Both the position numbers and the translations under genes were made by a program. From contig QQVD01000031.1 in NCBI GenBank assembly GCA_003388555.1, positions 62,001 through 126,000 on the forward strand: a stretch of 64,000 nucleotides of DNA, given 5' to 3'. This document shows, in pieces, positions 46,056 through 48,002 of the stretch. Position 1 is the stretch's first letter. Each line of letters opens with the position of its first letter. This DNA comes from Acidobacteriota bacterium. Its GTDB lineage: Bacteria > Acidobacteriota > Thermoanaerobaculia > Multivoradales > Multivoraceae. Below the pieces are notes generated by a model, which saw nothing but the letters and a program-made list of their open reading frames with translations, ran no database searches and was not told the DNA's origin.

Positions 46056-46231
46056 GAATCGACATCGGTGGGGAGCTGAGTCGAGCCACACGGGGTATTG
46101 GCTGACAGTGAGAGCAGCGGCGGAGAGACATAGCTGCGCCGGCTGGGAGGTCGAGGGGGTTCAGCCGCCCCTTCTCCGAGGCTCGGCTACTCTGGAACCA
46201 GACCACGTGACGGGACAGAAGGGAGGCGAAG

Positions 46232-46567
46232 ATGTCGGTCTAATCGGCCCCTCAGCTCTACATCGATCTGCTTGAGGACCGGGAGCTCGCACGGCAGGTC
46301 TACGCGCTCGAGGACCGGAAGGAGCGGTGGCAGCTGCTGTCGAGCCGTGGCTACGACTTCACCGAGGGCGAGTGGAACGAGGTGCAGAGGGACGCCCAAC
46401 GCATCATCGAGGCCGCCGGCGAGCTGAGCGACGAGGACCCCGAGTCGGTGAGCGGTGGAGTCACCTTCAGCCCCAACACCTGATTGAGCGGCCCCAGCCT
46501 GCAGCAGGCCCAGATCGATCCGCCGCCGATCCGGGCGTTGTACGGCGTCGCGATGCCCGGCAGCTGA
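46232..46567 (+). pseudogene. Nif11-leader RiPP precursor, interrupted by two stop codons
   Basis: ATG 46232 has a good GGGAGG site 7 nt upstream. The frame reads MSV, then TAA (46241, codon 4), then a full Nif11 leader: SAPQLYIDLLEDRELARQV, ALEDRKERWQLLSSRGYDFT, EGEWNEVQ..., LSDEDPESVSGG, whose double Gly is at codons 75-76. TAA sits where Nif11 peptides commonly have Glu (GAA), so a single substitution explains it. After SGGVTFSPNT comes TGA (46481), and the same frame continues through LSGPSLQQAQIDPPPIRALYGVAMPGS to TGA 46565. The LYG (Tyr104) fits the XYG motif of splicease substrates. The radical SAM gene follows directly. Confidence 0.75.
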
Positions 46568-46597: not shown

Positions 46598-48002
46598 GTG
46601 ATCCGCACCACCTACTGCGTCTGGGAGCTGACGCTCCAGTGCAACCTCGCCTGCGCGCACTGTGGTTCGCGGGCCGGCACCCGGCGCCATGATGAGTTGA
46701 GCACCGAGGAGGCGCTCGACGTCGTCTGTCAGCTCGCGGAAGTGGGCGTGCGCGAGGTGACGCTCATCGGCGGCGAGGCATGGCTGCGTCGGGACTGGCT
46801 CGAGATCGCCGCTGCGATCGTCGCGCACGGCATGACCGTCGAGCTGGGCACCGGCGGCTACGGCATCTCGGCCGAGGCTGCCCGTCGCATGGCCGAGGCC
46901 GGCCTCGCCCTGGTGTCGGTTTCTGTCGACGGACTGGCGGAGAGCCACGACCGTCAGCGCGCCCGCCCCGGCTCCTTCGACGCCTGCTTCGATTCGCTCG
47001 AGCACCTGGCCTCGGCCTCGCTCCCCACCGCGGTCAACACGCAGATCAACCGGCTCAGCCTTCCCGATCAGCCTCGGCTCCACGAACGCCTGTTGGACGC
47101 CGGCGTGCAGGCTTGGCAGTGGGGGTTGACAGTGCCCATGGGACGGGCGGTGGAACAGGCCGACTGGCTGCTGCAGCCGGCCGAGCTGGTGGAGGCCTAT
47201 GAGGTCCTGGCGGTGGTCGCGCGTCAGGCAGAATTCGATGGGCTCAGGATCCAGGCTGGCAACAACATCGGCTACTACGGACCGTACGAGCGACTGCTCC
47301 GCGGTCACTCCCTCGGAGACCGCAGCATCTGGCAGGGGTGCCACGCCGGTCTCAGCTCCTCGGACTGGAGGCGGACGGCACGGTGAAGGCATGCCCGTCT
47401 CTGCCCACCACGGCCTACCGTGCCGGCAACGTCCGCGAGACGCCGCTGCGGGAGCTGCTCGAGACGGCTCCCGAGCTCGCCTTCAAAGCGGGACGTTCGG
47501 GGTCCCGCGGCGGCCTGTGGGGCTTCTGCGGTGGCTGCGACTACGCACCCCTGTGCCGGGGCGGCTGCAACTGGACCTCGCACGTCTTCTTCGGGCGGCG
47601 CGGCAACAACGTCTACTGCCATCACCGCGCACTCGAGCTGCGTCGTCGGGGCCGGCGCGAGCGGGTGGTGCTGATCGAGCAGGAAGCGATCGTCCCTTCG
47701 ACCACGGTCGTTTCGCGATCGTCGAGGAGCCGGTCGACGCCGCTTGGCCCAGGCGCGATCCGCTGCGGTTCTCGCTCGATCAGGTCCGCTGGCCGAGGCG
47801 GTTCTCCGAGCGACCCGTGCCGCCGCCGGCCGCGGGCGGGGTCGGGGAACCGTCTCTGCAGACACCGCCGGCGGCGCCGACTGCACTTGGTTCTCGTCCA
47901 GCGCTCGAGCTGGCCCCGCGACTCGGTGAGCGCGAGGCGTTCCGGAGCCAGTTCGAGCGAACCGTCGCCCTGCGTGGCGTCGCCGCCCTCCTCGACGACT
48001 GA
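46598..48002 (+). pseudogene. Radical SAM/SPASM RiPP maturase with two frameshifts
   Basis: GTG 46598 begins VIRTTYCVWELTLQCNLACAHCGSR: the CxxxCxxC [4Fe-4S] motif is Cys15, Cys19, Cys22. The core continues with EVTLIGGEAWLRRD (GGE) and VSVSVDG. The frame is lost near 47353: 'GCHAGL' continues as 'QLLGLEADGTVKACPSLP' one base back. It then runs through the SPASM cysteines (FCGGCDYAPLCRGGCNW, YCHH) until about 47687, where a second one-base shift is needed to reach DRPFDHGRFAIVEEPVDAAW, ending at TGA 48002. Joined, it would be about 468 residues, normal for the family. Both faults look like single-base losses. Such enzymes modify Nif11-leader peptides, so it is the partner of the broken precursor. 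Confidence 0.8.

Follow-up and report, generated by a model that had tools for sequence, protein, structure and literature searches.

Probable remains of a two-gene spliceotide cassette in a Thermoanaerobaculia (Acidobacteriota) genome

The precursor frame and the adjoining maturase gene

In the window analysed here, a 64,000-nucleotide stretch of contig QQVD01000031.1, a Nif11-type RiPP precursor pseudogene lies at 46232-46567 on the forward strand, as do all the cassette features given below, and it has 112 codons counting three stops. When this region is read as one frame, direct translation gives MSV, a stop, SAPQLYIDLLEDRELARQVYALEDRKERWQLLSSRGYDFTEGEWNEVQRDAQRIIEAAGELSDEDPESVSGGVTFSPNT, a second stop, LSGPSLQQAQIDPPPIRALYGVAMPGS and a final stop, the terminal TGA being at 46565. 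By direct reading, a Shine-Dalgarno-like AGGGAGG (46220-46226) is found 5 bases 5' of the ATG. The frame is not an intact ORF because codon 4 is TAA (46241-46243) and codon 84 is TGA (46481-46483), and both stops are read directly at the codons where the preliminary description of this DNA had placed them. The translation also bears out its statement that one and the same frame encodes the leader, the double-Gly site and a core that ends in PIRALYGVAMPGS. The TAA occupies a column of the leader alignment that is Glu in 5 of the 5 relatives compared, and the TGA falls between the double-Gly site and the core motif. ATG, GTG and TTG are all absent between codons 4 and 51 of the frame and therefore no ordinary start both escapes the TAA and retains the leader.

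The leader (Nif11 domain, 46232-46375) matched Nif11 (PF07862) with an E-value of 1.9e-7 and 31.7 bits, above the curated cut-off of 23.8, and matched the Nif11 RiPP leader family TIGR03798 with 33.2 bits, above the cut-off of 32.3. In the whole-genome scan the PF07862 match (G000:C9:108232-108375, 37.1 bits) begins at the precursor ATG and crosses the TAA, the one stop inside it. This ATG aligns with the start of the precursors of Nostoc and related organisms (MSLE..., MSIE...). The leader ends at a Gly-Gly (46454-46459), and the GG is invariant in the leader alignment, where SGG of this precursor is aligned with the GG of every precursor compared. The genome has one other Nif11 match, in a 61-residue ORF on the reverse strand (G000:C16:112786-112911, locus L130); as a further precursor this ORF was rejected, as it is leader-like only and a core is absent.

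The core ends in PPPIRALYGVAMPGS followed by TGA, and its putative splice site is PIRALYG (46526-46546), an XYG-type motif with LYG inside PIRALYGV. A position matrix of the core was built from 22 XYG cores adjoining relatives of the neighbouring enzyme. Over all six frames the window contains 112,872 12-mers, of which PIRALYGVAMPG of this core scored highest with 17.4 bits, the runner-up having 14.7 bits. When the 27-residue tail was shuffled, the score of the core was reached in 371 of 200,000 shuffles (p about 0.002). The published splice tag of PlpA2 is PIRPLYGLPI (PMC10533398), so that PIRPLYGL and PIRALYGV have PIR-x-LYG in common. Cys is absent from the core.

A radical SAM/SPASM gene, on which the preliminary description was silent, starts at 46598, 30 bases past the final stop of the precursor. 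It is a maturase pseudogene whose match to TIGR04103 ("nif11-class peptide radical SAM maturase 3") consists of three collinear pieces in three frames. Piece 1 (46598-47352) carries the radical SAM domain with CNLACAHC and matched TIGR04103 at 8.3e-109 with other families far behind, piece 2 (47353-47625) is the SPASM region with its cysteines (FCGGCDYAPLCRGGC...YCHH), and piece 3 (47676-47819) is the C-terminal part (PFDHGRFAIVEEP...); thus CNLACAHC and the SPASM cysteines are retained. The first frameshift lies within 47341-47359, where the frame switches in tblastn of four intact relatives, and the second, also placed by tblastn of intact relatives, lies within 47625-47691. With these two frameshifts every piece scored below the 725-bit cut-off of TIGR04103, whereas a Brasilonema relative with an XYG precursor scored 829 bits, above it. 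In the whole-genome profile search the best other TIGR04103 match had only 55 bits. When structures were compared, the solved matches were the distant radical SAM enzymes SkfB, cytosylglucuronate decarboxylase and PqqE, and there was no splicease among them. A paper search for TIGR04103 by name found nothing. We take TIGR04103 to be the PlpX family (IPR026482), an indirect equation with which the matching XYG neighbours agree. PMC11002830 gives IPR026482 as the PlpX subclass. The proposal of splicing draws its strongest support from the TIGR04103 gene, a SPASM radical SAM gene, beside the precursor; together with the core score, this gene upholds the earlier suggestion that LYG fits the XYG motif of splicease substrates.

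The flanking genes (DUF1877, cupin, hydrolase and HEAT) are open, and Pfam recognises alpha/beta hydrolase, DUF1877, cupin, HEAT and TPR among the neighbours. The four lesions, two nonsense and two frameshift, lie within about 1.5 kb and since the neighbouring genes are open they are local. In six related genomes the homologues of the TPR, Mce-like and hydrolase proteins encoded around the cassette lie apart from one another, and an empty site was therefore not shown. Beside the cassette we recognised neither a PlpY-like gene for an accessory RRE nor genes for a leader peptidase or a transporter. When the small proteins 3' of the relatives' enzymes, rather than a PlpY model, were used as queries against 43-53.5 kb of the window, a convincing match was absent, and PqqD-like domains occur in this genome only away from this locus. 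Elsewhere in the window, an ORF at 41491-42003 matches GRDB (glycine/sarcosine/betaine reductase selenoprotein B), the match being confined to the C-terminal part (profile positions 219-344 of 347).

Relatives of the enzyme and their precursors

A species-genome scan for the enzyme gave 80 loci. In Acidobacteriota the TIGR04103 enzyme is rare, being found in 4 of 396 sampled genomes (E up to 1e-70). In the tree, the clade that holds the enzyme of this locus has a support of 100/99, and the closest intact enzymes are from cyanobacteria, Eremiobacterota, Acidobacteriota, Rheinheimera and Frankia. A small XYG precursor adjoins nearly every clade member with readable flanks. The cores are QPMYGV in Synechococcales, QPIYGL in Nostoc, QPLYG in Brasilonema and VPLYGL in Xenococcaceae among the cyanobacteria; AQPLYGV in Sulfidibacter, PQPLYGV in Acanthopleuribacter and ARPLYGVWV in a genome of the same order (Co_bin.310, G043) among the Acidobacteriota; and elsewhere five copies of AQPVYGAP in Eremiobacterota, ALYGS in Rheinheimera and PVYGAP in Frankia. 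XYG beside these enzymes thus spans five phyla with unrelated leaders: most cyanobacterial members have Nif11 leaders, and elsewhere the leaders are different and XYG is kept. The preliminary description had proposed to look for homologues of leader and core beside radical SAM genes, and such neighbours do exist, as XYG precursors adjoin the closest TIGR04103 enzymes.

Some proteins beside these enzymes were noted in their own right. In another genome of the phylum (G251) a 294-residue protein with DELYGVRFGD (L046:8742-9626, reverse strand) adjoins a TIGR04103 enzyme, and it is possible that it is a large-protein splicing substrate. The five AQPVYGAP cores of the Eremiobacterota precursor (L050:5401-5940), which adjoins a TIGR04103 enzyme, are near-identical, and a 115-residue protein beside this precursor has no NCBIfam match. 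Small proteins 3' of cyanobacterial enzymes (L060:1983-2183, L052:7273-7452 and L056:7389-7595) have a common LLPRSxWxSQ motif; they are candidate partner proteins, and the one that was scanned had no NCBIfam match.

Spliceotides are an established and widespread class (PMC10533398, PMC10373908), and PMC10533398 mentions 939 predicted systems besides 27 others that have been characterised. In the plp system of Pleurocapsa sp. PCC 7319 (PlpA/PlpX; PMC11002830, PMC10533398), as in the cassette described here, the leader is of the Nif11/nitrile hydratase kind and ends in GG, the core has XYG and a SPASM radical SAM gene adjoins the precursor. Unlike in plp, both genes are broken here, the host is a high-GC acidobacterium and not a cyanobacterium, and neither the PlpD epimerase nor a partner like PlpY, the recognition element of that system (PMC11002830, PMC10533398), was recognised near the cassette. 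The cyanobacterial cassettes of Nif11 precursor and TIGR04103 enzyme (Nostoc, Brasilonema, Rhizonema, Xenococcaceae) have the same leader family, with a leader start MSxE that aligns with the ATG of this precursor and PLYG, IYG or MYG in the core, but they are intact and often have several precursors or several XYG sites. The enzyme of this locus clusters, weakly, with those of Eremiobacterota (L050, JAHBVR010000033.1) and Frankia (L063), the former being the nearest in the tree (support 93/68). The L050 core VYGAPMPS resembles LYGVAMPGS of this locus; that system differs in being intact, in its repeated cores and in that no Nif11-like leader was seen by eye in its precursor. Co_bin.310, a Thermoanaerobaculia genome, has three TIGR04103 enzymes and the LYG precursor mentioned above, but its short leaders are unlike Nif11 and its enzymes branch with those of Sulfidibacter, Acanthopleuribacter and Rheinheimera, apart from the enzyme of this locus. 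That the nearest relatives of this enzyme are not the same-order copies suggests that the cassette was gained horizontally and separately from them. The proposal that intact relatives might form a spliceotide family from this phylum can thus be kept only in part. Intact acidobacterial systems do exist, in Sulfidibacter, Acanthopleuribacter and another Thermoanaerobaculia genome, but the family is not new, and the copy at this locus groups, with weak support, with Eremiobacterota and Frankia and not with its own order.

Decay of the cassette and alternative explanations

A very probable explanation of these observations, drawn from sequence comparison, is that the locus is a decayed two-gene spliceotide cassette of the PlpA/PlpX-like kind, made up of a precursor and a Nif11-maturase-3 radical SAM/SPASM enzyme. 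Each of the two genes carries two disabling lesions and their layout is the same as in intact relatives. By analogy, the ancestral enzyme would have excised tyramine (-135 Da) at XYG to give a ketoamide, the leader would then presumably have been removed at GG, and the resulting ketoamides could inhibit proteases; spliceotide products have been described as protease inhibitors (PMC11117315). In the present state, only three residues of the precursor would be translated and the SPASM domain would be missing from the enzyme. Since both the precursor and the enzyme are broken and the genome has no other strong hit to the family of this enzyme, no product is expected and the organism probably makes no spliceotide.

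Of 61 columns that are near-invariant in 32 homologues the maturase pieces deviate at 2; for the close clade the count is 8 of 107 columns, against 0 to 10 in intact members. With so few conserved residues lost, the enzyme looks to have been under selection until fairly recently and its decay looks fairly recent. The same counts would also fit genes that are intact in the living organism, with an active spliceotide cluster and lesions that are errors of assembly or consensus, and the assembly is indeed a fragmented metagenome assembly of 74 contigs. This is unlikely, however, as four lesions of two kinds have fallen in about 1.5 kb while the neighbours stay open, and the terminal branch of the enzyme (0.73, the median over the tree being 0.18) is the longest in the clade, as expected under relaxed constraint. 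Less likely again is that the lesions are assembly errors in what would be an active Nif11-led Thermoanaerobaculia spliceotide system that came from outside the phylum and works without an adjoining PlpY-like partner.

The splicing reaction of the enzyme clade is itself predicted, and Nif11 leaders are not confined to a single RiPP class, the prochlorosin lanthipeptides being given as Nif11-class in PMC10783134. The precursor might then have served another radical SAM modification, for example epimerisation or thioether formation, with LYG being incidental. We consider this improbable because nearly every clade enzyme has an XYG core beside it, across five phyla and behind unrelated leaders, and because the core matches the PlpA2 splice tag in PIR-x-LYG; a thioether is further opposed by the lack of Cys. 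It could also be argued, from a frame that continues unchanged through the core to its end, that the stops are recoded or bypassed and that the precursor is expressed as it is. This would require read-through of two different stop codons, one of which, TGA, is an ordinary stop in the neighbouring genes, and the partner enzyme has two frameshifts to bypass as well, so that we rejected recoding as having next to no likelihood.

The locus is thus a dead member of a known spliceotide class in a Thermoanaerobaculia (Acidobacteriota) genome. Working gene pairs of this type are already known from many bacteria, so the pair found here is an unremarkable dead example. With it, a phylum in which few genomes carry the enzyme gains a decayed representative of this unusual way of splicing peptides, and the find suggests that such cassettes are acquired and lost across phyla. 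The intact relatives, rather than this copy, are the ones worth study.
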